From contig NC_091934.1 of assembly GCF_041260155.1 (NCBI RefSeq), positions 45,168,842 through 45,232,841 on the forward strand: 64,000 nt of DNA, in the 5' to 3' direction. This document shows, piece by piece, positions 29,124 through 60,245 of this stretch; position 1 is the stretch's first letter, and the number at the start of each line of letters is the position of its first letter. Made by a program: the position numbers and the translations under genes. The stretch comes from Ptychodera flava. Taxonomy: Eukaryota > Hemichordata > Enteropneusta > Ptychoderidae. Under the pieces are notes generated by a model. That model was not told the origin of the DNA. It ran no database searches and worked only from the letters and a program-made list of their open reading frames with translations.

Positions 29124-29181
<58 letters not shown>

Positions 29182-30960: not shown

Positions 30961-31420
30961 GTATGCGAAACACTTATAAATGCCAGACTTCACAAAAGCT
31001 ACAATAGATGGCACTCCGATTCACATGAGCATACACAAACACAACAAGACCAAACCGTAGACATAGCTTCCGTAATTGAACAACAAACTTTAGTGGAACA
31101 ACATATTAACACATAAAATCAATCAATCATTCAACATGTCTCACCAATCAAAAATGAATTTTAAGTGACTGATGAAGAAAACTCTGTTTTCGAAACGTAG
31201 CTTCAAAGGATCGCAGTGTAACGCTAGTCTCTCCGCTCCAATGTGGGTTAACAGCAAGACACGTAAATTACGGGTATGTACGTCTCGCCATGCCTAATCA
31301 ACCCTTTAGGCCTACGTAAAACAGCTAAACATGATATACACACACATAGAATCATACACAAAACGCAAAGAATTCACATATGAACGATGTGAGGAGTTGC
31401 TTTCCCTTTATTACAACAAA

Positions 31421-31786
31421 ACAAACCGAAGAGCGACGATCAAACAGAACGATGCAGTTCAAACAGAGCGACGCAATTAGAAACTGAAGAGCGCAGGTCA
31501 AAACAGAACGACGCAGCTCAAACAGAACGACGCAATTACAAACTGTAGAGCGCAGGTCAAAACAGAACGACGCAGCTCAAACAGAACGACGCAATTACAA
31601 ACCGAAGAGCGCAGGTCAAAACAGAACGACGCAGCTCAAACAGAACGACGCAATTACAAACTGAAGAGCGCAGGTCAAAACAGAACGACGCAGCTCAAAC
31701 AGAACGACGCAATTACAAACTGAAGAGCGCAGATCAAAACAGAACGACGCAGCTCTAACAGAACGACGCAATTACAAACTGAAGAG
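31421..31786. repeat. 60-bp tandem array, right arm of foldback element (inverted)
   Basis: About six copies of the complement of the left-arm unit (AGAACGACGCAGCTCAAACA, GAACGACGCAATTACAAACT, GAAGAGCGCAGGTCAAAAC). The innermost copies are degenerate, while the outer ones are nearly identical to those of the left arm, pointing to homogenisation between arms. Confidence 0.95.
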
Positions 31787-34700
31787 GGTCTGTGTCGTTT
31801 TCGGCCACGGTACAAACCCCATACATCGCTGTGATTCCTAGACTCTGCTTGAAGTCCTGCGAAATATAAATCGTGTACCTACACAGATCGTTCAGAATAC
31901 CCCATTTGTATCGGTGATGGCAGCGATACAAATTCTACCGGTATGGGGAACAGTTGTGTGGCTACTCTGTTAACACATTTTCAAATCGCGTACCATTTTT
32001 AGTCTGCGTTTGACAACTACAAAACAGGTATCGTTTTAAAGCTCTGACATTGCTCTTCTTCCTTGCAAAATGTTATACGCGTACCTACACAAATAACCTT
32101 TATAACAGTATTTCTAATAGAGATGACGAACATCCACAAAATGATTCTCGGTACTTGCGAAATTGATAAACTGGGGTAGAAATGAATCGTCAATATTTCG
32201 AATATTTGTTCACTAATCGGACTCTTGTTGGACATGACCTTCTGCAGAACACGTGGATTATGTTGACTGTCGAAATTCGTCGAAATTCACAAGACAGGGG
32301 CTTAATAAGCGGCCCAAAACTGCCGATCACACTTGGTGGGTAATTTGTGACCCAGCGTGACCTGTACTATATTAATGATGTAATCTAGTCGATGATTGGC
32401 TGAATGCCGGAATACATTATCATAATGAGTCTCCAATTTTGGAGCTGACCCGGACTGATCATACTGCAGTCAACACTCTCATCAATGTCAGCTGAGGTCA
32501 AAGTTGACTTAATGATGGTGATTTCGGGTGATTTAATTTACGCAGAAAGAAATGAACCTGTGTTTTTGAGATATTGTGTATAGAAGCACTGTTACTATAA
32601 CTAGAAGTAAATTAGGCTCATAACTGACAAAATCCAGATTGTTTTACATGTAAACTCTGAAAAAAATTTGAGCAATGTGTGGATTAAAGTGATGAATGAC
32701 TTAGGTAATCTAAATATCAACCATATATATAAACATCTTCCTCAGGTGAACACAGAACGGACCAATAAAGATGACCAACAAATTAACATTACAAATGTTT
32801 TGCCAGTCAGTGTTTTTGAAACTTTCGAGTTTCAACAATTAACTGCCAAGTTCACTGTTAATCACAATCATGAAAGCAAAAGGAGTAGAGGAATCATAAA
32901 ATATATCGTTCACATTCAGTGATGTTGGTTGGTAGCTTGGCTGACCGTTGAAAATGACCGCATTTACCGTCATGTCTGCAGTCAATGATCGTATCTTTCA
33001 CGGTGTCATGGAACAGTCACTGAACTCTGAGACTTTTGAATGTACTACCACACACATTTGGTTTCAAACAAATTCAACAAGTTCAGTTCAAAGGCAGAAT
33101 CATTATCAGCTTTCACTGAACGTGTCATTGGACTTAACATTGAACTATTTCAACATTGAAGATGAGACCATTATTGAACACGAAGGACTGTATGAATGAG
33201 TGCATGCACACCTTAGGGTTGCTTGCAACTTGCCGATCTGCACTTAGCTGCAAGCTGTCGCAGATTGGTTCCAGAGCTGCGGCAGTTCAATGCAGCTCAA
33301 ATGCCGATCTGCACAGAATATTTGGAGCTGTCATATTTCTGCCGCAGACTCAAGTATCTCTGAAAGATGAAATTCAGCTTTGGACAGCTCTTGGTAGCTC
33401 GAACAGGAGCCCTCGTGCAGCTTAAAAATCATCCCAGGTAAAACTTCACATATATCACATTTGACAACCATTCTTGAAAACTTTTGTTATGTCCAGATGG
33501 GATGTCTTAAGAAAATTCACAGCATCTGTACGTTTAATGTATTATATTCTGCGCTTTCTTTTGAAATATGCTAAGTTGAATTTTTATTCAGCAACAACGG
33601 CAATGGACGGAAACAATATATGTGACAATTCTGTACACAGTACAGATTGAATGTACAGTAGTCTTGTAGGAGAAAAACTTCAGTTTTTTATTTCATTAGA
33701 AGAAGCATGTTTTACCCTGTTCTGATGCCCTAGCAATGTGATAGTGTGTGTAGAATCGAAAGCAATTTAAACCTTGATTGAGTAAACGATGGATACAAGG
33801 ACTCCCAGGAAGATACTCACTTGTTCTCCAACAAAAAAGAGAAAAGGTAAAAATGTGTACATATGTAGAGATGTCGATCTGTAGAGTTTCTGAAATGCTG
33901 TTTATTATTAAAAGTGACACAATCGATTAACAGTGCAAAAAACTGGTTTTCCTGGTTGCTAATCTCTCATGTCTTTTTTAACAATTTAGTTTGTGATGAA
34001 ATAAAAGCCCTTCTTAGGGGTGTAAAAAATACCACCTAGGCTTGTTTGCTTTTGTCCAAGAGGAACAGAAGCTATTGGTACATGTTCTGTTGGGCATTGA
34101 ATAAAGGTTGGATCCTTATATACTTGGAAGGCATGAAAGATTTGCTCGTGGCAGATTTTCTAATTTACCACCATCCCGTCAAAATCTGTGTTTTCACATT
34201 TAAAGTTAATGGCATGTTTGACACCTCAAAGGTCTAACAACATTTTTTTTGTGTATATTTGGTTTCTTTTCCAGCCTGCCAATTAAACTCATAGCTGTAC
34301 TTTTTTGTAATTTTTTTCCATATCGTCAAGTTCGCAATATCAAATGGTCCATCTCTATACTGGAGAATAAGAAGGAAAGAGAAATATCAAATATTAACTT
34401 TCCCCTAGTTGCCATAGTGATTGAAGAGTCATCACAATTTGGTTTTGTGTACAATATGTTTTCATGATACTTAAAGACAACCAGAGTTAATGATGCATGA
34501 ATTCAGAGGCGAAGTTTAGGTTTTGAAAATACAACGATTCAGTTATAGATAATTTTATTTTACTGCTGAGGTAAATTCTCAGAAATAACATTGATTCCTT
34601 AGATTCACAGTTCTACCATGAACATACAAAAGCATATATTTGTGAAATAAATTTTTATTAGACTCTTTGAAAATGTATAGTACACCTAGTACTGTACAAG

Positions 34701-35477
34701 GTTATCCATTTTCCATTTTAAAAATAACTGCTGCAGATTGCATATGCCCTTGTCCCTCGGCAAATTTCATGTTTATTCTTTGCAAAGCAAAGATGTTATT
34801 TCTTAATCTGTTGCTTTCTCATTAGTTCATTTAGGCCATGGTGACATAGGAATATCAAAATTTGACCAAATAAGATATATGAATGTACGCCCTAGCACAA
34901 AAAGTTTGTACCAATTTTTTTTTTTAATTTCTGCTTCTAGGATATGAAAGTTCTAGTTCATGATTATGCCAACTTTCAAATCACCAAGAACAGAGATTTC
35001 AGTACAAAATCAAATGTTCCATCCATGAAGATACCTCTACTCTCAGCCACCCAGCTTGCCTTTTTGAAAAGATAAATTTATTCCAACAAAATGGCAAATA
35101 AATCAAATCCACATATGAATGTGTCGAGCGAACGAACAAATTACAAAGCAACTTGTCTGAAACTTTCTCATGTAACTGGAAAGAAAAGAAAGAAAAATAT
35201 CAATAAAATCATATCATTACGTAAATGCATTCGAGACGCACTTCGAGTCTTGCAACGCTTGAAAACTTCATGACAACAAGTTGCAGCTTTTGCCGACGAA
35301 AAGCGCCCCCAGCGGTGGATCAGGAAGTCACCTACGGGACAAATGTGTCATATGACTTCCAACTTCCACCTTGGCGTTGACGTCAATCATGTTCGCCGGT
35401 TGAAAACGTAACATAAAGTTTCCTCCGCCGATTTTCAAGCAGAGAGTTGGACCAATAGGGCGCCTAACAGTACAAGA

Positions 35478-35759
35478 ATGGTCAAAAAGTATTTACCCAT
35501 CATCATGTTTCTACACATGGCGCTAGTATATTCCCTTGAAGAAGACCTGCATAATCCATTCAACGTTGTATGGGCCGCAAAAACTTATGAATGCCCTGAG
35601 ACGTTCGGGATACCATTGGATTTTGAAAAGTATGGAATTATTGCAAACAAGAATGACCATTGGAAAGGTGACAAGATTTCTTTATTAAGCAGGAACGATT
35701 TGGGGTTGTACCCATACTACGACAAAAATGGAACCGCTGTCAATGGTGGAATTCCTCAG
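35478..35759 (+). CDS. Hyaluronidase B exon 1
   Basis: The exon has 94 codons, identical in layout to A. The donor is CAG|GTATCG, and the upstream context GTACAAGAATGG is shared with A and C. Confidence 0.94.
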
Positions 35760-38700
35760 GTATCGTAATGTTTCGTGTGTTTGAGAAGCCGTGCGTACCG
35801 TGCTGTGTGTTCCCGGTGATCTGCGACCTACCCTACCTCCTGCGATCTACTCTTCCACTCATGAATAATTAATTAGCTTTATGCAAAAATGTACAGTTTT
35901 ATGCAAATTTCCTGTGCGCCCTTGAAAGATGGGTGAATAGATCGCAGGTATATACTGCGATCTATGCTGACTTGCGAGATATGCTGCCTTGCTATCTACG
36001 CTCCCATGCGATTGCAGATTTTCAACCAAATGTAGCCGTACATTTGGTCCGTTTACGGTGCATGATGTAATGGAGGCCCCCGGTGGAGGCCTTCAGCTGA
36101 TTTATATTTCATTTTCATTTGTACTTCAGATGTATAGCGAGCGCGAGCGTCGTTAGGAGCAAACTACAAATTCGGCAAACTTTGCGTGCTTTTCGCTAAT
36201 CACCGTTTTCGCTGTAATCTGTTTGCAGCTAGTAATTTTGTTATGACGACTGCAAATCTTCAAAATGGGATATTTAAAAATTTCATCTAGCCATCACTTC
36301 CTTGCATTGTGTCATAAACTCTATACTAATGTCTGAGTAAAATAGAGGAAGGTTGCTCCACAATTCTCATTAGTGTATTTTAATGTTTCGTACATGTGGT
36401 ATGGTCTGATTGTGTATTATTTCGGTATTATTAATATTCATGTTTTATCATGAGTATTGTTTACTTTTTTGGTGTAAGAAATTAGCCATGGTGAGATGGT
36501 TGTCATTACTTGCGAAGTGAACGTAAGAAACTCATGATGGAATAAATAATGTCCTGACAAAGTTAACGATGTGAGCATAATCTTCACATCCATCCTTTAA
36601 TAAATCAAATGAATAAAATATTCATCCAATCGGTAGGCCTACAAGTATAGATCAAATTACTACAAGATAGAGTTGGGTAGATCGCATGGTTTTCTGTCAA
36701 ACACACCTGCGATCAATACTTCCCTTCTACGCTACTCCAACAAATTACTTTACAGCACGCATATCTGTTCTTTCGGTTCACAGAAGAATTGCCACAAGCT
36801 AACTACCACACCTCGATACGTACCGCGAATGTCGCAACATGTAATTTCAATAAATGAAGTCGGCCTATCTAAAGGCAGTGTCGGTCTGATCGCGGAACAA
36901 TAATCTTAGACGCAGGTGACTGGGATCTATACTTCCCTCTGCGAGCTACGCTTCTCAAATATATTTTATTTTTACCGTTCAATTGATAAATTTGATGTAA
37001 TATTAAATCATACAAAATACAATTATCCAGGACCGATTATCGATGTCACAAGCTTCGCAAGATACGATTCACTGGCATCACCACAATGGCAGCCGGTGGT
37101 GATCGTAGAGAGTATAGCTCAACTCTGCCTATACTTCCCTTGCGATCCCCCCTCTATACTTCTCTCTGCCACCTACGCTTCTCATTACAGTTCAATTTAT
37201 AAACTCAAGTTAATATTAAATCATACTAAAACAATTATCCGGGATCGATGTTGATGGCACAAACCTCGCAAAATACGATTCACTAGCATCACTACAATAG
37301 CAGCCAGTGTTGATCGCAGGAAGTATAGCTCGCAGGTGACTCTGCTCTGCGATCTATCCTTCCCTTGCGATCTATACTTCCCTTTGCTATCTATGCTTCT
37401 CCAACCTATTTTATTTTTACTATTCAGTTGTTAACGATGTATATTAAATCAGACCTAAACAATTATCCGGGATCGATTGCCTACGCAACCTACGCAACAA
37501 GCCTCGCAACATACGATTCGTTGGCACAATGGCATGCACATGGCAGCCAGTGTTAATCGCAGGAAGTATAGCTCGCAGGTAACTCTGCGATCTATCCTTC
37601 CCTTGCGATCAATACTTCCCTCTGCTATCTATGCTTCTCCAACCTATTTTATTATTGCTAATCAGTTGATAAATTCGATGTAATACTAAGTCATGCCAAA
37701 ACAATTATCCGGGACCGATTATCGATGTCGATGGCACAAACCTCGCAAAATACGATTCACTGTCATCATCACAATAGCAGCCAGTGTTGATCGCAGGAAG
37801 TATAGCTCGCAGGTGACTCTGCTCTGCGATCTATACCTCCCTTGCGATCTATACTTCCCTCCGCTATCTATGCTTCTCCAACCTATCTTATTATTACTAT
37901 TCAGTTGATAAATTCGATGTAATATCAAGTCATACCAAAACAATTATCCGGGATCCATTGTAGTGGCAGGAAGTTTAGCTCGCAGGTATCTCTGCGATCT
38001 ATACTTCCCTCTGCTATGTACGCTTCTCCAACGTGTTTTATTATTACCATTCAGTTGATAAATTAGATATAATATTAAATCATACAAGAAAATTATCAGG
38101 GATCGATTATCGATGTCACGAGCCTCGCAAAATACGATTCACTAGCATCACCACAACGGCAGCCAGTGTTGATCGCAGGAAGTATAGCTCGCATGGTAAC
38201 TCTGCGATCTATACTTCCCTTGCGATCTGTACTTCCCTCTGCTACCTACGCTTCTCAAACGTACTTTATTATTCCAGTTCAATTTATGATGATAAATTCA
38301 AGTTAATACTAAATCATACTACATAATTATCCGGGATCGTTGATCGATGTTGATGGCACAAACCTCGCAAAATACGATTCACTAGCATCATCACAACTGC
38401 AGCCAGTGTTGATCGCAGGAAGTAAGCCCGCAGGGAGCTCTGCGATCTATACTTCCCTTGCGATCTATACTTCCCTTTACCTCTAGGCTTCTCCAACGTA
38501 TTTTATTATTACCGTTCAGTTTATATATTCGATTTACAATTATCCGAGATCGTTGATTGACCTCGATGCCACAAACATCGCAACATACGATTCACTAACT
38601 AGTATCACCACAATGGCAGCCATTGTTGATTGCAGGAAGTATAGCTCGCCGGTAATTCTGCGATCTATACTTCCCTAGCGATCTAAACTTCCCTTTGCGA

Positions 38701-41700
38701 TCAACGCTTCCCAGATGCATTTTATTGTTTCGTTCGATTGATAATTCAAACTTAATACTAAACGTTCGAAAACAATTATACAGGATCAAATAATTTTCGA
38801 TACCACAAACCTGCAACATAAAATTCACATCCATCTCCACTGGGAAGCCACGCAGTGTTGGTCGCAGGAAGTTTACCTCGCCGATACCTCTGCGATCTAT
38901 ACTTCCCTTGTGATCTACGCTTCCCAAATACATTTTGCTGATTTCGTTCAATTTATAGACTCCAGTCAATACTAAGCCATTCTAAACAATAATTAGGGGT
39001 TGGTTTATCTATGCCAAAAACCTCACGACATAATAGTTACAGGCGTCACAGCCCCGGGGTCACAGCTCTTCATAGCTAGTGTAAGTGGTCGCCGGGCCGC
39101 TAGTGTAAGTGGTCGCCGGGCCGGGGGAAGTGTATTTCGCAGGTATAGCTTGAGCCTGATAACCACAACACTTCCCTTCGAGACCATGTCAAAAGATAAA
39201 AATCCGAATTCTTTAAGTTTGGGGTGGGGAGGGTTTTGTGGTGAGGGGGATTTAACCCAAAAAAGTTTCATCCTGCAAAAATCATCTTGTTTGAATTTGT
39301 TTGAAAGACATTTATATATTGACCTGCATATCTTACTGATAAGCTTTTTTAACAGAAATAAATGGTTTTTTTTTCATTAGAACATTGTTGTTATTTGCAA
39401 CTTTCCATCCTGGTAATGTTTTAAGTATGATTGGAATTATCACAGTGAAGATTAAATGGGGGAACCTCTGATTATTGATATTCATCAATTAGGCCTAAGG
39501 TTCAATGGAGGTGGGCGTTTGGGTGTTGGATCAGAAATTTTGAACTTTTGACGCCGTCTCTTATGCAGGTCATCTATTTTCCCATTGTCATCTATACTCC
39601 CATTGCCATCTACACTACCATTGCCATCTATACTCCCATTGCCATCCATATACATTTCGATAAAAAATCCATTAAAATTTGGACAGCGGTCGGAGTCCCG
39701 CATGTCAATAGCCTATTGACAGGCGCGGCGTTGCAAGGTGCAATCGTACGCGGTAAACTTCTACAATTACTAAAAATTACGACTTTATTCATAATTAAGT
39801 GTACAAAGGCTTTATCAAGCATTCTAACAAGCACTGGACAGTTTATTAGGCTTAAATATGATGTATTTTGGCGAAAAACCTCCCGCGTGTCAATAGTCAC
39901 ATCCTGGCTATTGACAGGCGCGGCGTTGGTGCAACATATGGTACACGGTAAGTCTAGAATTACTCAAGATTGCAGCGACTTTGTCCATAATGAGTGTAGA
40001 AAGGCTTTATCAAGCATTCTAACAAGCATTGGACAGTTTATTAGGCTAAATATGGTGAATTTTTACGAAAAACCTCCCGCGTGTCTATAGCCAACTTTTG
40101 TCTATTGACACTGACAGGCGCCTGTCAATAGCCGGATTCTGTCTATTGACAGGCGCCACGGCCCAAAATAATAGAATTTTTCTCCTTTCTAACATTGGAA
40201 AGGTTACTGAACATGGACAAGAAGTTCATCACATCCGTAAGCATAACCTCTCTGTGATTGAGTGATCGTAAAAACCACCTTTCTCCCATTACATTTCGTA
40301 TTTACCAGACTCCATTTTGAAATAGGCAGTGTAGTCTGAATAGAACTCGCTGTCATGCATTTAAGTAACAATATTTGCATAAATCTAATTAATTATTCAT
40401 GAGTGGAAGAGTAGATCGCAGGTAGGGTAGGTCGCAGATCACCGGTATCTTCCCACCAGGCCGTATAACGCCGGAACACACAACACGGTACGCAGGGCTA
40501 GTTTAGAGTGGTTAGAGTAAGGTTAGAGTATACACATTGATACAGTAAGCTTACGCATTTAAACTGATTTATAAAATGTACGACCAGATAAATTCTCAAC
40601 CTAGAGTATGCAGCAAAAACATCTTTGCGAGTACTACAGTATTGCATATTCAATGGACTACGGCCAGATCATGGGTTTTTTTACACTTCTTTGAAATTGT
40701 TGTCCTGCACAGCAGAGGACAGGTCCAGGGAAGTTACAAAAAGTCAAACTGTGAAGGAAAAAGGCAACATGATAGCAAGTGAAACTTCATTCCTGGTGAT
40801 ACAGTGCGAAAGCAAGCTACATTTTTTTTTAAAACCTAATGGCTTCACACACATTCTTCTGGCACACCTATTGTTCTGCGTGTATACTTACTTATTCACT
40901 CCATGCAAACCTTTGTTTTCCATTGAATTTTAAATTACAGTTTAAACAATTTGCTCTCTGTTTACATGTAATCAGGAATGTGCCACCTTTCAACCAAAAG
41001 ACAAACTTTTAATGCTTTTCTACTTATTATACAAATCATATGGTTTGATGTCTTTGCAAAACCACAATTAAAGCCAACATTTAAGATCACTTGATGAAGA
41101 GATAGCTTCATTTTCACTTCATTAATAAATTCACACCTCCAAGCTTTGCTACAGTCTTGCAAATTCCTGCCCAATCAGTAGTGTATGGAAATGGCATAAC
41201 ATCAAGACAATATGTGGCTGGTGTAATCACATGAATAGTCTTTGAATGTACCAGCTAGTAATGACAGGTAGTATTCTACATGAACAATAGAGGACATATC
41301 TTGGGTGCCGATCTAATTCAATGTACTAATTTGCATGGACCACGCAGGACTTAAAAAACTAGGCTTTAAAAGTTATTGAAACATGATTCTTAGAATGTTA
41401 TTTGTGGTTTGGAGGAAAATGAAAGTTTCACACACAAAAACGAGAATATTTGACATTTTAATGAATATGTTATCAACAGCTAGATTACATTTTTGGTTGT
41501 GTAACACAAAGGAAATGAGAAGTATACTGGTTTTGTATAGTGACATTGAAATTCAAATCTGCAGGAAGAGATAGAACAGAATATTTATCTATTGTTGCAA
41601 CAGAAAGGATGTATGTTTTCCAGATGTGGTGAAACAAAGACACTAAAAACAGGACAAATCAAACACTGGAATCTGATTCAGTTTTCATCCTGAGGATCTG

Positions 41701-42988
41701 GTACAATAAACATTTCATGGTCTATCATCACACATCCCATATGTTGCAGCAAAAAGATCAATTTTTATGTTTGTCCATGGTTTGATTTTTTGATGTCTCT
41801 TTTTTTGCACAATTACAAGTACATGCTAATACAATTAAAAGGTGATCACTTTAAAATTTATTGCAATTTATATGTGAGTTGATCTTTTTCATATACAAGG
41901 CTTCATTGTATACCTGTATACTTTGCAGTATACCATGTATACTTCACTGTATACTTGACACATTATACTTCACGGTATATAGTTCACAGTATACTGTATA
42001 CTTGACAGTGGTATACCTGTATAATTGATGGTATACCGTATACTTTGCAGCATACCTGTGTGCTTCACCTGTCGATTGGGTACATAACTGTAAACCTTCA
42101 GGCACTTGGCCAGCAATTTACCTGCTCTAGCTCTGGGCAGGCAGGTTAAATTCCATGCTGATTTCTCATCCCTGCCAATAGCGCCCTCATTTATCTACTG
42201 TGCCAGCAAACGAAACAGATAACAAAAGAAAATGTCATTTATATGATGGAGGGTGCATTGTTGTCTTGTTGATGATTCTGAAGGATTTATATGATGTACT
42301 AAATGTACTTATCAATTTCTTTTCTCAATCACAGCTCACCAATCTCACTGAACATTTTGAAAAAGTTGTTGAAGATTTTTGGAAATACTTTCCAGACCCA
42401 AATTATTCTGGTTGGATTGTAATCGACTGGGAACCATGGCGACCAATCTGGGAGAGAAATTGGGATGCGAAAAAGATTTACAAAACTGCGTCGATATCTC
42501 TGGTACAAGAGAGGCACAAAGACTGGCCAGATGACCTAATAGAAGAGGTTGCTAAGTTTGAATTTGAAACTGCAGCCAGGAATCTTATTCAAGGAACACT
42601 GAATCTGTGCAAGAAATTGCGCCCATATGCATTATTGGGTTTATATGAATTCCCAAAATGTTACAAATTCAGTGGACAGGGCACTTGTTCTGAAGCAATA
42701 CAGAGAGAGAATGATGAATTACAGTGGTTATACGATTCAAGTACAGCTCTGTTTCCGTCAATCTATGTGTCATATAAACAAAGTGATGTAAAGGACTTTG
42801 TTAAGGCAGCACTTACTGAAGCAAAGAGAGTGACACTGAAATCTGAACATTCCAATAAACCAATCTATCCATTTGGTAGATTTAACTACTCGCACACATA
42901 CTTCTACTTTACAAATGTGAGTATGCCTGTATAGTGAAGAAGTTATAACTATTTTGCAAATTTCCAAAGTAATTCTGTAGTTGCTCAC

Positions 42989-43026
<38 letters not shown>

Positions 43027-44875
43027 ATTACCCCAGAAACTGGATGCCACATAATCTACATCTGAATTCATTGCACCTCATAATACTAGATCATCTTTTG
43101 ACCAAATTCAATTTTCCAATGGTTAAATACTGACAGCCTGTAACCTCATGTGCCATCATCAGGTCAAATTGGTTAAAACAAGTGAGGTTTTATATATTCC
43201 AAATGATGCATTTTAACAAAAACTTGAATATTTGGAAGCCTCCTGAGTACCTAGATACTCTAAATATGAGTTTTACTGACCAAATTATAACATACCAAGC
43301 CAAGTTGGTGAAAATATATATGTATAAATTTGACTCAATGGAATTTTACTGACTTGGCAGATGGGAAGGTGATACTATCTGGCAGGATTACGGTTTAATA
43401 GAGTGATTTTGCTGCACCAAATTCACACTAGTGATCAGTTCTTGAAGGGGTGACATGACAAATTGAATGTAAGTTGAATATAGGGAAAAAAGTTTGAAGT
43501 GAATGGCCATCAAGCAGTGAGTATGTCCTTTTAAATAAATTTACAAAGTGACAGCAGTTGGGAAATAGAAACCAAAAAATGACATATTAAGCCTTGTCTT
43601 GCCAAGTTCATATTTTTCATTGGGTCAAGTTGGTCAAAACCAGCGTGGCATGTCCCGTACATGGCATTGAAGGCTCCAGAAGAATATAATTCATAACTAA
43701 TCCTACTGTAAGAATCCGTACCATGCCAAATAGTCTCAAAAGTTTTGACTCAATATCACTTGCTGACTCAGTAGATAAGGCCTAGCAAGAAGAGGGTTAA
43801 AGATTCCATGTAGCTTTTTTCTAACCCTCCTTAGTGGTAGTCATCTAACATTCACATTTCTCAACTTCAGATTTTGTTTTACATGCCACATGAAAGATAC
43901 AAAATAAACGAAGTAAGTTTACATCTATCCACTGAACCATTTCTACACCATTGTCCGCTCACACGGCTCTGTTACGTACTTCCCACTTGAAGCATCCACC
44001 TGCGCGGACAAGAGACCTTGCCAAGCGGAGAATTTTCTACACCACTAAAAGCATGTGTACTATTCTCTTGTGTCTACCATGGAGGTAGTAGGAGAGGTCT
44101 CTCCTACTACCTCCATGTGTCTACTAACATTATATACCAAGTCTGGGAATCAGACTGTTCTTTTAACATAACACAGGAGAGTCCAATGCATTACAGCCAG
44201 GTCCGAACAGTAATTCCGTGTATACTTTGCCAGTTTGTCATTGGCTGTGTTGTGAAGATCCATTTTGTCCCAACTTTTGTCAACTATTACTTTGTAACTG
44301 GTTTAAAAAGATGCTGCAAATTATTTAATTTTCAAAACCTATTTATATGATTGCCATTATTTTATTTATGTGTTTCTGAAATATGAATTAATTCCATTGA
44401 TTGATTGATTGATTGATTTGTTTGTTTATTTCAGGTTGATCTTGAGAATACCATTGGTCAGAGCGTAACGGAGGGCATGGCTGGGATTGTACTATGGGGC
44501 GATTACAATGACAGTAACAGTGCACCGACATGTCTTGGTTTGAAGCATTACCTGGACACCATGCTGGGTCCCTATATTCTGAACGTTACAAAATTTGCAA
44601 GGAAGTGTAGTGAAGCATATTGTAGTGGTCATGGACGGTGCATCAGAAAAGATGATGATGGTTACCATGGAGATGAATCACAAAAGATTGATGAATTGCA
44701 ACTTTTAAAACAGAGGATTTGGTCACAGTACACAGAGAGTGAAATTTATGGAAATATTATATTCAAGAATAAGAAAGAAACCAAAGTGCAATATTCTTTC
44801 ACTGAGACCAAATATGGAATGTATGGATGCCAATGTTACTCTGGTTGGCATGGCAACCAATGTAATAAAAGTTGA
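35478..44875 (+). CDS. Hyaluronidase B (GH56), 3 exons, 434 aa
   Basis: Exons 35478-35759, 42335-42916 and 44435-44875 are all open and phase 0. The architecture is the same as A: signal peptide, GH56 barrel with VIDWEPWRP (D125, E127), FPSIYVSYKQ and a C-terminal EGF-like module. Exon 1 has its own changes (AAKTYECPETF where A and C have AAPTFKCPEKF-like sequence). Exons 1-2 resemble C, exon 3 resembles A, and introns show the same switch, so the gene is a recombinant. Intron 1 is 6.6 kb because it holds a 4.6-kb mobile element. Phe replaces the HYAL1 Tyr247 position as in A and C. It is probably a secreted or lysosomal hyaluronan- or chondroitin-degrading enzyme; activity is not shown. Confidence 0.95.
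36900..38990. repeat. Tandem array, units of about 175-242 bp
   Basis: Eight to nine units are marked by GATCGCAGGAAGTATAGCTC (near 37316, 37558, 37790, 38174, 38415, 38631, 38863) and by GCGATCTATACTTCCC, CAATTATCCGGGATCG and CCTCGCAAAATACGATTCAC. Each unit carries several copies of GCGATCTA, which is also part of the element's terminal repeat. Confidence 0.92.
39690..40140. repeat. Two direct repeats of about 190 bp with TTGACAGGCGC motifs
   Basis: TGTCAATAG...CTATTGACAGGCGCGGCGTTG, followed by a shared stretch including AAGGCTTTATCAAGCATTCT, occurs twice (from about 39700 and about 39890). Further CTATTGACAGGCGCC copies lie at 40100-40155, where GACAGGCGCCTGTC forms a palindrome. A short array of CCATTGCCATCTATACTCC lies just upstream (39580-39650). 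Confidence 0.85.
41895..42070. repeat. GTATAC-rich array, intron 1 of B
   Basis: Many GTATAC/GTATACC motifs are spaced by 10-20 bases (CTGTATACTTTGCAGTATACC and similar). It matches 51276-51447 in C. Unit A has only a short version at 23398-23445. Confidence 0.88.
42335..42916 (+). CDS. Hyaluronidase B exon 2 (catalytic)
   Basis: The exon has 194 codons with VIDWEPWRP. It is a mosaic by single sites: early codons (FWKYFPDPNYSG, NWDAKK, WPDDL) agree with C, whereas several silent sites (ACCATGG, GCGTCGATATCTCTGG) agree with A. Confidence 0.96.
42992..43023. repeat. (CT)n microsatellite, intron 2 of B
   Basis: A CT run at the same place as in A and C, and close to the point where unit B changes from C-like to A-like sequence. 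Confidence 0.93.
43140..43400 (+). mobile_element. Diverged M4-family MITE in intron 2 of B
   Basis: It is nearly identical to the copy in A (24422-24681) and more distant from the C copy, in keeping with the A-like origin of this half of B. A second relative lies at about 43590-43801. Confidence 0.62.
44078..44117. repeat. Perfect 19-bp inverted repeat with 2-base spacer, intron 2 of B
   Basis: CATGGAGGTAGTAGGAGAG, spacer GT, then its exact complement. It would form a long cruciform or, in the pre-mRNA, a near-perfect hairpin. It is shared with A in slightly degraded form. Confidence 0.93.
44435..44875 (+). CDS. Hyaluronidase B exon 3
   Basis: The acceptor is TTTATTTCAG. The exon has 146 codons plus TGA. 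It closely resembles exon 3 of A (GMAGIVLWGD, KYGMYGCQCYSGWHG) and differs more from C (GMAGFVLWGD). Confidence 0.96.
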   Translation, partial: VDLENTIGQSVTEGMAGIVLWGDYNDSNSAPTCLGLKHYLDTMLGPYILNVTKFARKCSEAYCSGHGRCIRKDDDGYHGDESQKIDELQLLKQRIWSQYTESEIYGNIIFKNKKETKVQYSFTETKYGMYGCQCYSGWHGNQCNKS

Positions 44876-47800
44876 TTGATGATTTTAAAAAAGTAAAATT
44901 TATAATTGAAACAAAGCCGTGCTAGTATGGTTAATTTCATGGCTTTACATGTTGACATCATTTATACATTCTAATGAGTGTAATTCATGTTGCGAGTTTT
45001 ATAGGTACGATCATATTGGAAATGGTGTAAGGTTATGATATTTGCATTGGGTGAGAACACCGCCAAAATTATTTTGAAATTTGTATTTAAACTTATCTCA
45101 TCATTATTATTCCATTATTTGATGATTTGGTGATAATTATGTCAGTATTTGGCCATTATGCCACTACTCGATCATTATTTGGATATCATTATGACATTAT
45201 TATGAACGTTGATTTGGAACTTATCTCATCTTTATCATGCCATACTTTGGTGATTTGGTCAGTGTATTGTGGAATGTTTTGGCAAACCTACATCTATGTC
45301 TTGCTCATTGCTCCTTCAAAATGGTTACATGACATTAATATTTTATGACTGAGCACAGCTGCATCATACTGCAGTCAACACTCTCATCAATGTCAGCTGA
45401 GGTCGAAGTTGACTTAATGCCAGCTGAGGTCAAAGTTGACTTAATGATGGTGATTTCGGGTGATTTATTTTACGCAGAAAGAAATGAACCTGTGTTTTTG
45501 AGATATTGTGTATAGAAGTACTGTTACTATAACTAGAAGTAAATTAGGCTCGTAACTGACAAAATTCAGAATGTTTTAACTCTGAAAAAAATTAGAGCAA
45601 TGTGTGGATTAAAGTGATGAATGACTTAGGTAATCTAAATATCAACCATATATATAAACATCTTCCTCAGGTGAACACAGAACGGACCAATAAAGATGAC
45701 CAACAAATTAACATTACAAATGTTTTGCCAGTCAGTGTTTTTGAAACTTTTGAGTTTCAACAATTAACGGCCAAGTTCACTGTTAATCACAATCATGAAA
45801 GCAAAAGGAGTAGAGGAATCATAAAATATATCGTTCACATTCAGTGATGTTGGTTGGTAGCTTGGCTGACCGTTGAAAATGACCGCATTTACCGTCATGT
45901 CTGCAGTCAATGATCATATCTTTCACAGAGTCATGGAACAGTCACTGAACTCTGAGACTTTTGAATGTACTACCACACACATTTGGTTTCAAATAAATTC
46001 AACAAGTTAAGCTCAAAGGCAGAATCATTATCAGCTTTCACTGAACGTGTCATTGAACTTAACATTGAACTATTTCAACATTGAAGATGAGACTATTATT
46101 GAACACGAAGGACTGTATGAATGAGTGCATGCACACCTTAGGGTTGCTTGCAACTTGCCGATCTGCACTTAGCTGCAAGCTGTCGCAGATTGGTTCCAGA
46201 GCTGCGGCAGTTCAATGCAGCTCAAATGTCGATCTGCACAGAATATTTGGAGCTGTCATATTTCTGCCGCAGACTCAAGTATCTCTGAAAGATGAAATTC
46301 AGCTTTGGACAGCTCTTGGTAGCTCGAACAGGAGCCATCGTGCAGCTTAAAAATCATCCCAGGTAAAACTTCACATATATCACATTTGACAACCATTCTT
46401 GAAAATTTTTGTTATGTCCAGATGGGATGTCTTAAGAAAACTCACAGCATCTGTACGTTTAATGTATTATATTATTATTCTGCGCTTTCTTTTGAAATAT
46501 GCTAAGTTGAATTTTTATTCAGCAACAACGGCAATGGACGGAAACAATATATGTGACAATTCTGTACACAGTACAGATTGAATGTACAGTAGTCTTGTAG
46601 GAGAAAAACTTCAGTTTTTTATTTCATTAGAAGAAGCATGTTTTACCCTGTTCTGATGCCCTAGCAATGTGATAGTGTGTGTAGAATCGAAAGCAATTTA
46701 AACCTTGATTGAGTAAACGATGGATACAAGGACTCCCAGGAAGATACTCACTTGTTCTCCAACAAAAAAGAGAAAAGGTAAAAATGTGTACATATGTAGA
46801 GATGTCGATCTGTAGAGTTTCTGAAATGCTGTTTATTATTAAAAGTGACACAATCGATTAACAGTGCAAAAAACTGGTTTTCCTGGTTGCTAATCTCTCA
46901 TGTCTTTTTTAACAATTTAGTTTGTGATGAAATAAAAGCCCTACTTAGGGGTGTAAAAAATACCACCTAGGCCTGTTTGCTTTTGTCCAAGAGGAACAGA
47001 AGCTATTGGTACATGTTCTGCTTGGCTTTGAATAAAGGTTGGATCCTTATATACTTGGAAGGCATGAAAGATTTGCTCGTGGCAGATTTTCTAAATTACC
47101 ACCATCCCGTCAAAATCTGTGTTTTCACATTTAAAGTTAATGGCATGTTTGACACCTCAAAGGTCTAACAACATTTTTTTTGTGTATATCTGGTTTCTTT
47201 TCCAGCCTGCCAATTAAACTCATAGCTGTACTTTTTTGTAATTTTTTCCATATCGTCAAGTTCGCAATATCAAATGGTCCATCTCTATACTGGAGAACAA
47301 GAAGGAAAGAGAAATATCAAATATTAACTTTCCCCTAGTTGCCATACAGTGATTGAAGAGTCTTCACAATTTGGTGTTGTGTACAATATGTTTTCATGAT
47401 ACTTAAAGACAACCAGAGTTAATGATGCATGAATTCAGAGGCGAAGTTTAGGTTTTGAAAATACAAACGATTCAGTTATAGATAATTTTATTTTACTGCT
47501 GAGGTAAATTCTCAGAAATAACATTGATTCCTTAGATTCACAGTTCTACCATGAACATACAAAAGTATATATTTGTGAAATAAATTTTTATTAGACTCTT
47601 TGAAAATGTATAGTACACCTAGTACTGTACAAGGTTATCCATTTACCATTTTAAAAATAACTGCTGCAGATTGCATATGCCCTTGTCCCTCGGCAAATTT
47701 CATGTTTATTCTTTGCAAAGCAAAGATGTTGGTATTTCTTAATCTGTTGCTTTCTCATTAGTTCATTTAGGCCATGGTGACATAGGAATATCAAAATTTG

Positions 47801-48184
47801 ACCAAATAAGATATATGAATGTACGCCCTAGCACAAAAAGTTTGTACCAATTTTTTTTTTTAATTTGAAAAGATAAATTTATTCCAACAAAATGGCAAAT
47901 AAATCAAATCCACATATGAATGTGTCGAGCGAACGAACAAATTACAAAGCAACTTGTCTGAAACTTTCTCATGTAACTGGAAAGAAAAGAAAGAAAAATA
48001 TCAATAAAATCATATCATTACGTAAATGCATTCGAGACGCACTTCGAGTCTTGCAACGCTTGAAAACTTCATGACAACAAGTTGCAGCTTTTGCCGACGA
48101 AAAGCGCCCCCAGCGGTGGATTAGGAAGTCACCTACGGGACAAATGTGTCATATGACTTCCAACTTCCACCTTGGCGTTGACGT

Positions 48185-49131
48185 TCGCTGATCACTGCGT
48201 CGCACAGGGTCCGCCTAAACACCGACAAGCACCGACAAGAACCGACAAGGACCGTCAAGTGACCGACAAGTTGGATGAAAACCCCTTTTATTCGATGTTT
48301 GGGCTTTATAACGTCATTTTCTACGATTGTGGTGAAAATGAACACAATTGACCAAACGGTAACGGCAAACACGGTTAACCGTGTGGCAAACAAGGAAACC
48401 CTACCCGGAAGTAGTAGACGCCATCTTGTATGGGATCGTTTGATTTTTCCTCGAAGGGTAATCTAACCACTATCTTTTGTGGTTTCATATCTTAATTAAT
48501 GTAACAAGGGATTTGGTTTGAGGCCTACTTGATCACTCAACTGTATTATCGAAGAATGCAATAAACTGAACAATTACATATAATCTAGCAACAAAGAGAT
48601 CTAAAGCTATGACAACTAAGAGATAAAGGTGATGGACCGACAAGTTGAATGAAAACGATTTTTTTTTCGACGTTTCACCTTTTAAACGCCTATTTGTACT
48701 ATCTCTTTGAGTATCAAAAGATTCGAAAGAACAATTTCGAAAAACAAAAGTATTAAATTCCTGTCGTCATTGTGTCGATGGACGCATTCAGTTCACTTTC
48801 AACTTTAGAAATGAAGTCAAAGATGATCACTTGTCGGTCCTTCATAGTAAGGCTAAAAGACCTGCTTCAATACGCGATTTACTTGTCGGCTGATATTTCG
48901 TTCTCTTTCTTAAGTGCCGTTGTCAATAGCGTTTATATTCACCAGCATAGTAGAAAATGACATTTCAGAACCAAGACATCGAAAAAGAATGGTTTTAATT
49001 CAATTTGTCGGTCACTTGTCGGTCCTTGTCGGTCACTTGTCGGTCCTTGTCGGTCACTTGTCGGTGCTTGTCGGTGTTTAGTATGTCCGGTCTCGGGGGA
49101 CCGGGTGACCACTGAGGCGGGGACCAGCCAA
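48185..49131. mobile_element. 0.95-kb element with inverted ACCGACAAG arrays and 11-bp target duplication
   Basis: GGCGTTGACGT occurs at 48174-48184 and 49132-49142. Unit B has it once (35379-35389), giving a clean empty site and an 11-bp target duplication. Near each end lies an array of ACCGACAAG units in opposite orientation (48215-48271 and 49006-49080), with CTAAACACCGACAAG as the outermost unit. The extreme ends match only weakly (TCGCTGATCACTGCG against TGGCTGGTCCCCGC). An 8-11 bp duplication is usual for Mutator-like elements, so a non-autonomous MULE is the best guess. The core has CCGGAAGT and GCCATCTTG near 48404-48427. Confidence 0.85.
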
Positions 49132-49236
49132 GGCGTTGACGTCAATCTCGTTCGCCGGTTGAAAACGTAACATAAAGTTTCCTCCGCCGATTTTCAAGCA
49201 GAGAGTTGGACCAATAGGGCGCCTAACAGTACAAGA

Positions 49237-49514
49237 ATGGTCAAAATGTATTTACCCATCATGTTTCTACACATGGCGCTAGTTTATTCCCTTGAAGAAG
49301 ACCTGCATAATCCATTCAACGTTGTATGGGTGCACCAACTTTTAAATGCCCTGAGAAGTTCGGGATACCATTGGATTTTGAAAAGTATCGAATTATTGCA
49401 AACAAGAATGAACATTGGAAAGGTGACAAGATTTCTTTATTAGACAAGTACGATTTGGGGTTGTACCCATACTACGACAAAAATGGAACCGCTGTCAATG
49501 GTGGAATTCCTCAG
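49237..49514 (+). CDS. Hyaluronidase C exon 1 (frameshift)
   Basis: It begins MVKMYLPIMFLHMALVYS and runs in frame to FNVVW. From 49331 the GH56 sequence (APTFKCPEKFGIPLDFEKY to GGIPQ) continues one frame over. The donor CAG|GTATCG is intact. Confidence 0.92.
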
Positions 49515-52367
49515 GTATCGTAATGTTTCGTGTGTTTGAGAAGCCGTGCGTACCGTGCTGTGTGTTCCCGGTGTCTTCCCACCAGGCCGTATAACGCCGG
49601 GAACACACAACACGGTACGCAGGGCTAGTTTAGAGTGGTTAGAGTATACACATTGATACAGTAAGCTTACGCATTTAAACTGATTTATAAAATGTACGAC
49701 CAGATAAATTCTCAACTTAGAGTATGCAGCAAAAACATCTTTGCGAGTACTACAGTATTGCATATTCAATGGACTACGGCCAGATCATGGGTTTTTTTAC
49801 ACTTCTTTGAAATTGTTGTCCTGCACAGCAGAGGACAGGTCCAGGGAAGTTACAAAAAGTCAAACTGTGAAGGAAAAAGGCAACATGATAGCAAGTGAAA
49901 CTTCATTCCTGGTGATACAGTGCGAAAGCAAGCTACATTTTTTTTAAAACCTTGGCTTCACACACATTCTTCTAGCACACCTATTGTTCTGCGTGTATAC
50001 TTACTTATTCACTCCATGCAAACCTTTGTTTTCCATTGAATTTTAAATTACAGTTTAAACAATTTGCTCTCTCTTTACATGTAATCAGGAATGTGCCACC
50101 TTTCAACCAAAAGACAAACTTTTAATGCTTTTCTACTTATTATACAAATCATATGGTTTGATGTCTTTGCAAAACCACAATTAAAGCCAACATTTAAGAC
50201 CACTTGATGAAGAGATAGCTTCATTTTCACTTCATTAATAAATTCACACCTCCAAGCTTTGCTACAGTCTTGCAAATTCCTGCCCAATCAGTAGTGTATG
50301 GAAATGGCATAACATCAAGACAATATGTGGCTGGTGTAATCACATGAATAGTCTTTGAATGTACCAGCTAGTAATGACAGGTAGTATTCGACATGAACAA
50401 TAGAGGACATATCTTGGGTGCCGATCTAATTCAATGTACTAATTTGCATGGACCACGCAGGACTTAAAAAACTAGGCTTTAAAAGTTATTGAAACATGAT
50501 TCTTAGAATGTATTTTGTGGTTTGGAGGAAAATGAAAGTTTCACACACAAAAACGAGAATATTTGACATTTTAATGAATATGTTATCAACAGCTAGATTA
50601 CATTTTTGGTTGTGTAACACAAAGGAAATGGGAAGTATACTGGTTTTGTGAAGTGACATTGAAATTCAAATCTGCAGGAAGAGATAGAACAGAATATTTA
50701 TCTATTGTTGCAACAGAAAGGATGTATGTTTTCCAGATGTGGTGAAACAAAGACTCTAAAAACAGGAAAAATCAAACACTGGAATCTGATTCAGTTTTCA
50801 TCCTGAGGATCTGGTACAATAAACATTTCATGGTCTATCATCACACATCCCTTATGTTGCAGCAAAAAGATCAATTTTTATGTTTGTCCATGGTTTGATT
50901 TTTTGATGTCTCTTTTTTCGCACAATTACAAGTACATGCAAACACCTAAAAGGTGATCACTTTAACCCTTTTCCTGCCAAGTCCATATTTCACCACCAGG
51001 TCAAGATGGTTAAAATTAATGAAACACAACATATTCCATATGGTGTATTTTAACATAATACTGTACATTTGAAAGCTGTTGAAAACATAAATACTGTAAA
51101 CTTGATTTTTTCGGACTAAAGATGCTATAACAGACCAAGCCAAGTGGGTGAAAATTCATCATGTTTTCGCTTAATACCGCTTTTTACTGACTTGGCTGAT
51201 GGGGAAGTAATACTGTGTGGCAGGAAAAGGGATAAAATTTATTGCAATTTATATGTGAGTTTATCTTTTTCATATACAAGGCTTCATTGTATACCTATAT
51301 ACTTTGCAGTATACCATGTATATTTCACTGTATACCTGACACATATACTTCACAGTATATAGTTCACAGTATACTGTATACTTGACAGTGGTATACCTGT
51401 ATAATTGATGGTATACCGTATACTTTGCAGCATACCTGTGTGCTTCACCTGTCGATTGGGTACATAACTGTAAACTTCAGGCACTTGGCCAGCAATTTAC
51501 CTGCTCTAGCTCTGGGCAGGCAGGTTAAATTCCATGCTGATTTCTCATCCCTGCCAATAGCGCCCTCATTTATCTACTGTGTCGGCAAACGAAACAGATA
51601 ACAAAAGAAAATGTCATTTATATGATGGAGGGTGCATTGTTGTCTTGTTGATGATTCTGAAGGATTTATATGATGTACTAAATGTACTTATCAATTTCTT
51701 TTCTCAATCGCAGCTCACCAATCTCACTGAACATTTTGAAAAAGTTGTTGAAGACTTTGGGAAATACTTTCCAGACCCAAATTATTCTGGCTGGATTATA
51801 ATCGACTGGGAACCGTGGCGACCAATCTGGGAGAGAAATTGGGATGCGAAAATGATTTACAGAAATGCGTCAATATCTTTGGTACAAGAGAGACACAAAG
51901 ACTGGCCAGATGACCTAATAGAAGAGGTTGCTAAGTTTGAATTTGAAACTGCAGCCAGGAATCTTATTCAAGGAACACTGAATCTGTGCAAGAAATTGCG
52001 CCCATATGCATTATTGGGTTTATATGAATTCCCAAAATGTTACAAATTCAGTGGACAGGGCACTTGTTCTGAAGCAGTACAGAAAGAGAATGATGAACAA
52101 CAGTGGTTATACGATTCAAGTACAGCTCTGTTTCCGTCAATCTATGTGTCATATAAACAAACTGATGCAAAGGACTTTGTTAAGGCAGCACTTACTGAAG
52201 CAAAGAGAGTGACACTGAAATCTGAACATTCCAATAAACCAATCTATCCATTTGGTAGATTTAACTACTCGCACACATCCTTCTACTTTACAAATGTGAG
52301 TATGCCTGTATAGTGAAGAAGTTATAACTATTTTGCAAATTTCCAAAGTAATTCTGTAGTTGCTCAC

Positions 52368-52415
<48 letters not shown>

Positions 52416-54493
52416 GTTACCCCAGAAACTGGATGCCACATAATCTACATCTCAATTCATCGCGCCTCATAATACTAGATCCTCTTTTGACCAAATTCAA
52501 TTTTCCAATGGTTAACAGCCTATAACCTCATGTGCCATCATCAGGTCAAATTGTTTAAAATAAGTTAGGTGTTATATATTCCAAATGATGCATTTTCATT
52601 AAAACTTGAATATTTGGAAGCCTCCTGAGTACCTATAGATGCTCTAAATATGATTTATGCTGACCAAATTATAACAAAGCTAGCCAAGTTGGTGAATATA
52701 TATGTGTATAAATTTGACTCAATGGAATTTTACTGACTTGGCAGATTGGAAGGTGATACTATCTGGCAGGATTAGGGTTTAATAGGGTAATTTTGCAGCA
52801 CCAAATTCACACTAGTGATCAAGTCTTGAAGGGATGACATGACAAATTGAATGTAAGTTTAATAGAGATAATAGTTTGAAGTGTATGGTCATCAAGTGTT
52901 GAGTATGTCCTTTCAAATAAATTTGACACAGTGCACAGCAATTGAGAAATAGAAAGAAAAAAAATTTAAACCGAAAAATGACAGATTTAACCCTTATCTT
53001 GCCAAGTTTATCATCAGGTCAAGTTGCTTAAAACCAGCTTGGCATGTCCCATACATTGCATTGGAGGCTTCAAAAGCATATGTGTCATGTAAACATGATT
53101 TTTCGTTACCAAACCTACTGTAAGAATACATACCATATCATGCCAAATGGTATAAAAAGTTTTTGTTTGATATCACTCGCTGACCACTGAACCATGACAG
53201 TCAGGTGTTTTCCATATGAAATTTTCTTACAAGAATCTTATAAGAATCTTATATTAACAGATTCTTATAAGATTCTTATTCTTACTAATTTGCATATAAA
53301 ATACTTATTAAGATTCTTATAAGATTTTATAATAAGAAATCATACAGGCCACTATTACCATGTAGACTTCACTTGTCTATACTAACATTATGACAGCTTC
53401 AGGCCTGGACCAGCTCTGAGAGTCAGACAATACTTCTGAACACAATACAGGGAGATCATACATCAATAGCAGTGTTCCCGCTAAGGCTTATTTGCGCGCC
53501 AATTGCGCAGTGTCTCCGACTGCTCTCGCAGTGAAATTTCATGTTTTGCGCAACTTTAGTCTCAGTCATTTCGATCGGTAGTTTTGGAAACGATAACTCG
53601 GGGTGAAATGTGCGATCTCGGCGTAGATTTTACTTCCGCGTTTCGGGTTTAGCGCCGTTGGTGGCGCAGTTGCCACCAACGTTCATTGTACGTTGTGACG
53701 TACCTCAGTAAATTAGCATATACCCCGGTACATGAACGGACCCAGCTGTGAGACAATAATCCGACGTATCTCAACACAGTCCCGGAGGGACCGTGATCTC
53801 AAGTTGCGCACCCTCTTGAAACTCAGAGGGAACACTGATCAATAGCCAAAGCCTGCTTTGTGAAGATCTTTTAAGTAAACCATGTCAACTATTACTTTGT
53901 GATTGGTATAATGAACTGGTACAGAACATAAAACTTTACATCAAATGATTTAATTTTCAAAATTCAGACAAACAAGAAACATTTATATGAGTGCTATTAT
54001 TTTGTTTGTGTTTCTGTATTTTGAATTAAATCGATTACTTAATTTATTTCAGGTTGATCTTGAGAATACCATTGGTCAGAGCGTAACGGAGGGCATGGCT
54101 GGTTTCGTGTTGTGGGGCGATCACAACGACAGTAACAGTGCACCAACATGTCTTGGTTTGAAGCATTACCTGGACACCATGCTTGGTCCCTATATTGTAA
54201 ACGTTACAAAATTTGCAAGGAAGTGTAGTGAAGCATATTGTAGTGGTCATGGACGGTGCATCAGAAAAGATGATGATGATTACCATGGAAATGAATCACA
54301 AAAGATTGATGAATTACAACTTTTAAAACAGAGGATTTGGTCACAGTACACAGAGAGTGAAATTTATGGAAATATTGTATTCAAGAATAAGAAAGAAACA
54401 AAAGTGCAATATTCTTTCACTGAGACCAAATATGGTATCTATGGATGCCAATGTTACTCTGGTTGGCATGGCAACCAATGTGATAAAAGTTAA
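49237..54493 (+). CDS. Hyaluronidase C (GH56), 3 exons, exon 1 frameshifted
   Basis: Exons 49237-49514, 51714-52295 and 54053-54493. Exons 2 and 3 are fully open and carry IIDWEPWRP (catalytic Asp and Glu), FPSIYVSYKQTDAKD, FVLWGDHND and the EGF-like module. Exon 1 is 278 bases in place of 282: one codon is missing in the signal peptide (YLPIMF where A and B have YLPIIMF), and one base is missing after GTTGTATGGG at 49330, where A has GGGCTGCACC. The frame therefore breaks after FNVVW and the rest of exon 1 reads on in another frame. Either C is a recent pseudogene or the base is a sequencing error, since nothing else in the gene is damaged. Confidence 0.93.
49543..49625. mobile_element. 83-bp foldback sequence in intron 1 of C
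   Basis: Arms of 29 bp (GCCGTGCGTACCGTGCTGTG... and a complement with two mismatches) flank a 25-bp loop. Unit A lacks it. Unit B has it split by the 4.6-kb element (arms at 35789-35816 and 40467-40500). It could be a tiny MITE inserted before the recent duplication. Confidence 0.85.
50966..51231 (+). mobile_element. M4-family MITE, 266 bp, intron 1 of C
   Basis: CCCTTTTCCTGCCAAGTC at the left and TGTGGCAGGAAAAGGG at the right are inverted ends. Unit B reads ATCACTTTAAAATTTATTGC uninterrupted near 41850, so the insertion is C-specific. TAA on both sides would be a 3-bp target duplication, typical of Harbinger-type elements. Older relatives lie in intron 2 of all three genes. Confidence 0.87.
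51276..51447. repeat. GTATAC-rich array, intron 1 of C
   Basis: The counterpart of 41895-42070 in B, with small length differences. Confidence 0.87.
51714..52295 (+). CDS. Hyaluronidase C exon 2 (catalytic)
   Basis: The acceptor is CTCAATCGCAG and the donor GTGAGT. The exon has 194 codons, open, with IIDWEPWRP and FPSIYVSY. Small differences from A and B (DFGKYFPD, QKENDEQQW) are mostly conservative. Confidence 0.96.
52371..52412. repeat. (CT)n microsatellite, intron 2 of C
   Basis: A CT run in the same position as in A and B. It creates an Arg-Glu ORF on the other strand. Confidence 0.93.
52520..52785 (+). mobile_element. Diverged M4-family MITE in intron 2 of C
   Basis: It is orthologous in position to the copies in A and B but more divergent (AATTGTTTAAAATAAG, GACTTGGCAGATTGGAAG). 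A second relative from about 52985 (CTTATCTTGCCAAG) is truncated. Confidence 0.6.
53215..53345. repeat. AAGAATCTTATAAG palindromic repeats, intron 2 of C
   Basis: AAGAATCTTATAAGAATCTT and its complement occur three to four times, giving overlapping palindromes. The corresponding stretch in A and B is different. It is possibly a small inverted-repeat element. Confidence 0.7.
53470..53837. mobile_element. Non-autonomous hAT element, 368 bp
   Basis: CAGTGTTCCCGCTAAGG at the left and GAGGGAACACTG at the right are inverted ends starting with the CAG typical of hAT. ATCAATAG flanks both sides exactly (53462-53469 and 53838-53845), the 8-bp target duplication of that superfamily. It has no transposase. 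It is absent from A and B. Confidence 0.93.
54053..54493 (+). CDS. Hyaluronidase C exon 3
   Basis: The acceptor is TTTATTTCAG. The exon has 146 codons plus TAA. It codes VDLENTIGQSVTEGMAGFV, LWGDHND, NVTKFARKCSEAYCSGHGRC and ends CDKS. Confidence 0.96.
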   Translation, partial: VDLENTIGQSVTEGMAGFVLWGDHNDSNSAPTCLGLKHYLDTMLGPYIVNVTKFARKCSEAYCSGHGRCIRKDDDDYHGNESQKIDELQLLKQRIWSQYTESEIYGNIVFKNKKETKVQYSFTETKYGIYGCQCYSGWHGNQCDKS

Positions 54494-60062: not shown

Positions 60063-60245
60063 GCGATAACTGTGTTTCAGATCATTTGAGAGCAATCCAT
60101 CCATGACAGGTTTAAATTGTAATATACTTCTATTTAAGGAGAGACACTTCTCAAATAATTTTTTTCCCTGTAATTTCCTGTGAGAACACATGGACATGCG
60201 TAGGACTCTATGCTGGTGCTACCTTGCAACTTGTCATGGCATTGT

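Follow-up and report, generated by a model that had tools for sequence, protein, structure and literature searches.

The hybrid of the CYP11B1 and CYP11B2 genes is located between both intact genes. In glucocorticoid-remediable aldosteronism this hybrid derives from unequal crossing over between two similar genes, and 16 of the 36 cases have their fusion in intron 2 (PMC8750845). In the accessible excerpts of the open-licence literature, no hyaluronidase cluster tied to unequal crossing over or gene conversion was found, nor was anything pairing the term anti-Lepore with unequal crossing over hybrids. Here we describe a 64,000-nucleotide stretch of the genome of the hemichordate Ptychodera flava (RefSeq assembly GCF_041260155.1, contig NC_091934.1, positions 45,168,842 to 45,232,841 of the forward strand), hereafter the window, in which all positions are numbered from the first base. 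Three GH56 hyaluronidase genes, A, B and C, are encoded in tandem on its plus strand, with three coding exons apiece, in a cluster of ~37 kb (Table 1). The middle gene, B, is probably (at a rough probability of 0.78) a hybrid which arose when A and C crossed over unequally within intron 2, and which was subsequently altered by insertions and exon exchange.

The three hyaluronidase genes and the switch in intron 2 of B

The three genes were aligned block by block and the variable sites were typed as AB, BC or AC according to which two genes agree, with the misaligned block int1b left out of the counts to either side of the switch. Noncoding sites at which B matches one neighbour only favour C over A by 287:12 on the left side of the switch, and A over C by 103:9 on its right side. 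The corresponding AB:BC counts with int1b dropped are 27:317 and 114:10. The best single split of the 471 AB/BC sites improves the log-likelihood by 154.6 units, against a maximum of 11.5 in 2000 shuffles. B is thus not uniformly related to one parent, and an earlier sequence-only reading of the locus, which described it as a C-type 5' half joined to an A-type 3' half, is borne out. The same reading held that A and C are far more distant from each other in both halves, and their noncoding divergence in the usable blocks is indeed 6-25%. It amounts to 6-18% in the left blocks (int1b aside), 11.4% in the intron 2 block spanning the switch, 14% just before exon 3 and 25% after exon 3, and reaches ~54% where intron 2 aligns poorly.

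The final C-like site of B is at 43074 and the first A-like site at 43127. The junction between them occurs at homologous positions, inside an exact match of A and C, and the register is kept with C on the one side and with A on the other. The middle gene carries the 5' part of the downstream gene and the 3' part of the upstream gene, as crossing over predicts. The breakpoint had been placed next to a CT microsatellite, and the two do lie near each other in intron 2, but the borders of the switch are corrected to 43075-43126, starting ~50 bases 3' of the repeat. As the repeat ends at 43023, the crossover would have occurred beside it and not inside it. The outer limits of the similarity also required correction. 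The resemblance between B and C begins at 32484 (equivalent to 45416) and not at 33462, which is merely where A joins, while that between B and A ends at 45340 (equivalent to 26648) and not at 46386, the stretch 45416-46386 being the upstream spacer of C. The description of the units as nearly identical applies to their aligned parts, but the two copies also differ by five insertions, between ~0.27 and 5.1 kb in size, and by a length difference of 135 bases.

Membership of the GH56 family is indicated by the PF01630 profile, which scores above its curated threshold in all eight of the exon pieces supplied from A, B and C (exon 1 of C was outside the query set). The catalytic Asp and Glu are retained in exon 2 of B, as aligned to human HYAL1, and the D-W-E motif in which this exon shares is likewise present in exon 2 of A and of C. 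On these sequence features A, B and C are members of the GH56 hyaluronidase family, with hydrolysis of hyaluronan as their predicted activity. The reading frame is open in all three exons of A and of B and in exons 2 and 3 of C, while that of C exon 1 is broken. The break may be genuine or may reflect a sequencing error; given the broken exon, C may be a decaying copy. The product of B should be an ordinary secreted hyaluronidase, predicted to stand under C-type upstream control. When one exon of each kind was compared with the flanks (1-19000 and 54601-64000) and with the sequence lying between exons (26200-35400, 35800-42250 and 44900-49130), no fourth hyaluronidase gene was found there; the flanks gave short chance-like matches only and the inter-exon sequence no match at E 0.001.

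Table 1. Positions of the hyaluronidase exons, the parts of gene B, the spacers and the insertions within the window
Feature	Position	Strand	Evidence or remark
Gene A coding exon 1, from the ATG common to the three copies	21765..22046	+	Open frame, GT donor, PF01630
Gene A coding exon 2	23632..24213	+	PF01630, open frame
Gene A coding exon 3 with stop	25736..26176	+	PF01630, open frame
Gene B coding exon 1	35478..35759	+	PF01630, open frame
Gene B coding exon 2, A-like and C-like sites mixed	42335..42916	+	Open frame, site types
Gene B coding exon 3 with stop	44435..44875	+	PF01630, open frame
Gene C coding exon 1, frame broken	49237..49514	+	Frame check
Gene C coding exon 2	51714..52295	+	PF01630, open frame
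Gene C coding exon 3 with stop	54053..54493	+	PF01630, open frame
C-type part of B, from the end of the spacer through the upstream region, exon 1, intron 1 (holding the 4.6 kb insertion) and exon 2 into the first part of intron 2	32484..43074	+	
CT microsatellite, intron 2 of B	42992..43023	+	
C-to-A switch interval, 52 bases	43075..43126	+	A 24361-24412 identical to C 52464-52515
A-type part of B: remaining intron 2, exon 3, 3' flank	43127..45340	+	Intron 2: 14/1305 differences from A
Spacer S1 (A-B)	26326..33451		
Spacer S2 (B-C)	45021..46376		Sister of S1 without both S1 insertions
Spacer S3, after C	54634..56544		Aligned parts 71-83% like S2; suggested trace of older A/C duplication
Insertion in S1, ~0.68 kb	26649..27326		Imperfect 5-base overlap at ends
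Insertion in S1, ~5.1 kb	27354..32462		Inverted ends, exact 5-base target duplication
Insertion in intron 1 of B, ~4.6 kb	35819..40447		Inverted ends, short target duplication
Insertion upstream of C, ~0.96 kb	48185..49142		11-base duplication
Insertion in intron 1 of C, ~0.27 kb	50966..51235		Inverted ends, 3-base overlap

Spacers and insertions of the duplicated segment

A crossover between A and C in intron 2 doubles the segment from intron 2 of A to intron 2 of C, and the spacers S1 and S2 must therefore be sisters. Copy 1 of this segment comprises the 3' part of A, S1 and the 5' part of B (24413-43074), and copy 2 the 3' part of B, S2 and the 5' part of C (43127-52463). S1 and S2 are sister copies, with 19 differences in the 961 bases of the spacer proper, and both are far from S3. 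The claim that a two-gene cluster became one of three genes by unequal crossing over in intron 2 is thus sustained, with the polarity of the hybrid, the sister spacers and the homologous junction all found. The likeness of S3 to S2 in turn suggests, from sequence similarity, that a gene and its downstream spacer were duplicated in tandem at an earlier time, giving A and C.

A candidate spacer copy before A was rejected. The ~215-base piece concerned is found at 19122-19339, before A, and at 55828-56042, in the spacer after C, and is absent from S2, so that a dispersed element is more likely than a pre-A copy of the spacer. In the 3' flank of exon 3 (26177-26480 in A and 44876-45172 in B), A and B differ at 24 of 297 sites, while its neighbours are far closer (14/1305 in intron 2 and 3/168 in the spacer).

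Copy 1 is longer than copy 2 by 9325 bases, of which 9296 are made up by five insertions and two length differences of 135 and 27 bases. Copy 1 holds three of the insertions (~0.68, 5.1 and 4.6 kb) and copy 2 the other two (~0.96 and 0.27 kb), and the insertion sites are empty in the sister copy. Both S2 and S3 are uninterrupted at the two S1 insertion points, and those insertions are therefore new in S1. Inverted ends are found in three of the five insertions (5.1, 4.6 and 0.27 kb) and short end repeats of 3 to 11 bases in four, the 0.68 kb insertion having an imperfect 5-base overlap only. The 5.1 kb insertion in S1 is transposon-like and holds two inverted arrays of a 59-base repeat, while that in intron 1 of B contains a tandem array of 239-base units. 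Upstream of A, the sequence at 20440-20629 resembles (77%) 27444-27652 inside an S1 insertion.

The course of events may be envisaged as follows. Two older tandem GH56 genes, A and C, would have paired out of register and crossed over, presumably in meiosis, within the 52-base identical stretch of intron 2. The duplication of the segment between the two intron 2 positions would have given rise to the middle gene, with the upstream region and exons 1-2 of C and the exon 3 and 3' end of A. Insertions, several of them transposon-like, then entered the one copy or the other, and ectopic conversion may later have moved patches of exon sequence between A and either B or C. The introns of A and C are probably too different to support ectopic conversion, which would confine the exchange to the exons.

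Exon differences and alternative explanations

The two copies differ at 43 of 1301 exon sites, compared with 81 of 6359 noncoding sites (1.27%; p 1.4e-6). Synonymous sites alone also exceed this noncoding level (15/283; p 1.1e-5). Selection on the protein alone should not raise synonymous change, and positive selection by itself was therefore discarded as an explanation for the exon excess. At half the noncoding rate, 8.3 changes restricted to B would be expected in the exons and 27 are observed. There are likewise 15 C-only changes in exons 1-2 where 5.5 are expected, and one A-only change in exon 3 where 2.8 are expected. The synonymous sites of exons 1-2 are depleted in the BC type, where A alone differs (5/190 against 249/2373 noncoding), and show an excess of the AB and AC types together (9/190 against 20/2373). 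The 2373-base yardstick comprises seven upstream and intron 1 blocks, from up1 to int1a, with the exon 1 block set aside and without int1c, int1d and intron 2. Among all coding sites of exons 1 and 2, 21 are of the BC type and 32 of the AB or AC type.

Both the depletion of BC and the rise of AB and AC synonymous sites would follow if B or C had received patches of A sequence, and exon exchange with A is the likeliest source of the excess, judged from these site patterns. Exon 2 of B had been read as a fine mosaic of A-like and C-like sites. The types are mixed, as claimed (10 AB, 12 BC and 8 AC among 582 sites), but their clustering is unclear after merging of close sites. In a run test with 20000 shuffles, the observed value was reached 36 times for exon 1, 429 times for exon 2 and 2692 times for exon 3, and 3494, 2417 and 15200 times, respectively, after like sites within 3 bases were merged. 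The intron 1 block gave 17, and 1608 after merging. The suggestion of added gene conversion thus draws support from the synonymous BC depletion and the AB/AC excess but no proof from the tract statistics; conversion in the exons is plausible.

Of the 441 sites of exon 3, 10 set B apart from A as well as from C. The exon 3 of A could have been overwritten by that of C, or B could have received an unseen variant. Between A and C, the 146 codons of exon 3 show five nonsynonymous changes, and the A-C synonymous divergence of ~7% in exons 2 and 3 falls at the low end of the 6-25% A-C noncoding range (int1b out). As a tentative possibility, exons and introns follow separate tracks, with the three genes sharing a partly unseen pool of exon variants by exchanging exon-sized pieces with other hyaluronidase genes, on a DNA or cDNA template. 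If true, this would explain why recent duplicates show ~4x more synonymous than noncoding difference.

Another explanation, which concerns the exon excess only, is that the introns and spacers were homogenised later while selection prevented this in the exons. In the gibbon L/M opsins, exons are likewise reported to diverge more than introns (PMC3213168). The spacers would, however, require homogenising as well, and the low synonymous A-C divergence and the BC depletion point to exon exchange, although codon constraint could also lower synonymous change; we regard homogenisation as rather doubtful. An assembly artefact, in which two haplotypes of an A-C two-gene cluster were placed in series and joined in intron 2, would mean that B does not exist. 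The same layout would be expected, and the 1.27% divergence between the copies is near the heterozygosity of one cone snail (1.05-1.08% in coding regions; PMC8152183). Assemblies are moreover known to contain false gene gains, of which a minority are chimeric (PMC9516828). The 64-kb window contains no N, however, and the join falls at homologous positions within the 52-base match. Alleles should also differ least in their exons, whereas it is the exons, synonymous sites included, which show the excess here. Five insertions separate the copies, though alleles too may differ by insertions. Such an artefact is less likely than crossing over and, in our estimate, improbable.

The remaining alternatives concern the way in which the segment was formed. 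Replication template switching, instead of meiotic crossing over, could have duplicated it, and five B-only substitutions within 67 bases at the switch (43027-43093; 0.43 expected, p 8e-5, in a region picked post hoc) could be the scar of error-prone synthesis. The homologous register on both sides of the junction is, however, what homologous recombination gives, and template switching appears very improbable. It is scarcely credible that three genes existed beforehand and that the 3' part of B was turned A-like by gene conversion from A without a crossover. Exon conversion among these genes is plausible, but the A-like part of B runs to 45340, and S2 then stays the sister of S1 past the S1 insertion points and into the upstream region of C; had only the 3' part of B been converted, the spacer as a whole would not be a sister copy.

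Crossing over between A and C remains the preferred origin of B, and several points weigh against it or against the events proposed to follow it. The junction is known from one assembly alone, and the five B-only substitutions at the switch are unexplained. Conversion tracts are non-significant once close sites are merged. With regard to the age of the two halves, the noncoding differences between the copies are 64/4886 (1.31%) on the 5' side and 17/1473 (1.15%) on the 3' side (Fisher p 0.69), with the exon 3 flank excluded and the comparison of B intron 1 ended at 41800, just before an insertion. This flank (24/297) was counted apart from the noncoding DNA and was dropped from the age test only after inspection. 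With its 297 bases included, the 3' side has 41 differences in 1770 sites and the sides differ (p 0.005). The two halves agree in noncoding divergence, as an equal age would require, only with the flank excluded.

Other features of the window and comparison with known systems

Among the coding pieces upstream of the cluster, at 8094-14500 on the plus strand, 8094-8396 encodes a GATA zinc finger (PF00320) and 13435-13842 gives a match to Atrophin-1 that stays below threshold; we take these pieces to belong to a gene that is probably a RERE/atrophin relative. Repeats ~97% alike occur at 10528-11031 in this atrophin-like gene region, and an imperfect tandem repeat is found at the start of the window (1-823). 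Rfam and tRNA scans of the window gave no matches.

The locus offers a snapshot of a two-gene cluster becoming one of three, with an old duplication, a crossover, insertions and exon changes within ~37 kb. The fusion has a mild effect on the protein, as A and C are close in exon 3. The larger consequence is likely to be that B carries the upstream region of C with the last exon of A, while C may fail. The greater change in exons than in introns also illustrates how dates and selection tests based on the divergence of tandem copies can go astray.

Several described systems share parts of this pattern. Conohyal-Cn1 from cone snail venom similarly has a GH56 catalytic domain, an EGF-like end and the conserved Asp/Glu pair (PMC3296996). 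The copy number of conohyaluronidase is unequal between two cone snails (PMC13112664), and the conohyaluronidase gene of Lautoconus ventricosus typically has seven exons (PMC8152183), as compared with the three coding exons found here. Exon-centred change in genes of secreted proteins is also known as ASSET in snake venom genes (PMC2711939), but ASSET swaps in unrelated sequence segments, whereas the genes here show scattered substitutions only. The gibbon L/M opsin array likewise consists of tandem copies with exons diverging more than introns (PMC3213168). Conversion tracts in the opsins are mostly intronic, with selection guarding the exons, whereas the site pattern here better fits exon exchange, without proving it. 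Like the CYP11B1/CYP11B2 hybrid, B would join two similar genes through unequal crossing over; the former is a human disease allele, while B is a gene copy in an animal genome assembly. B is a well-preserved new example of a known process, the unequal-crossover hybrid, and its exon pattern is the feature most worth following.

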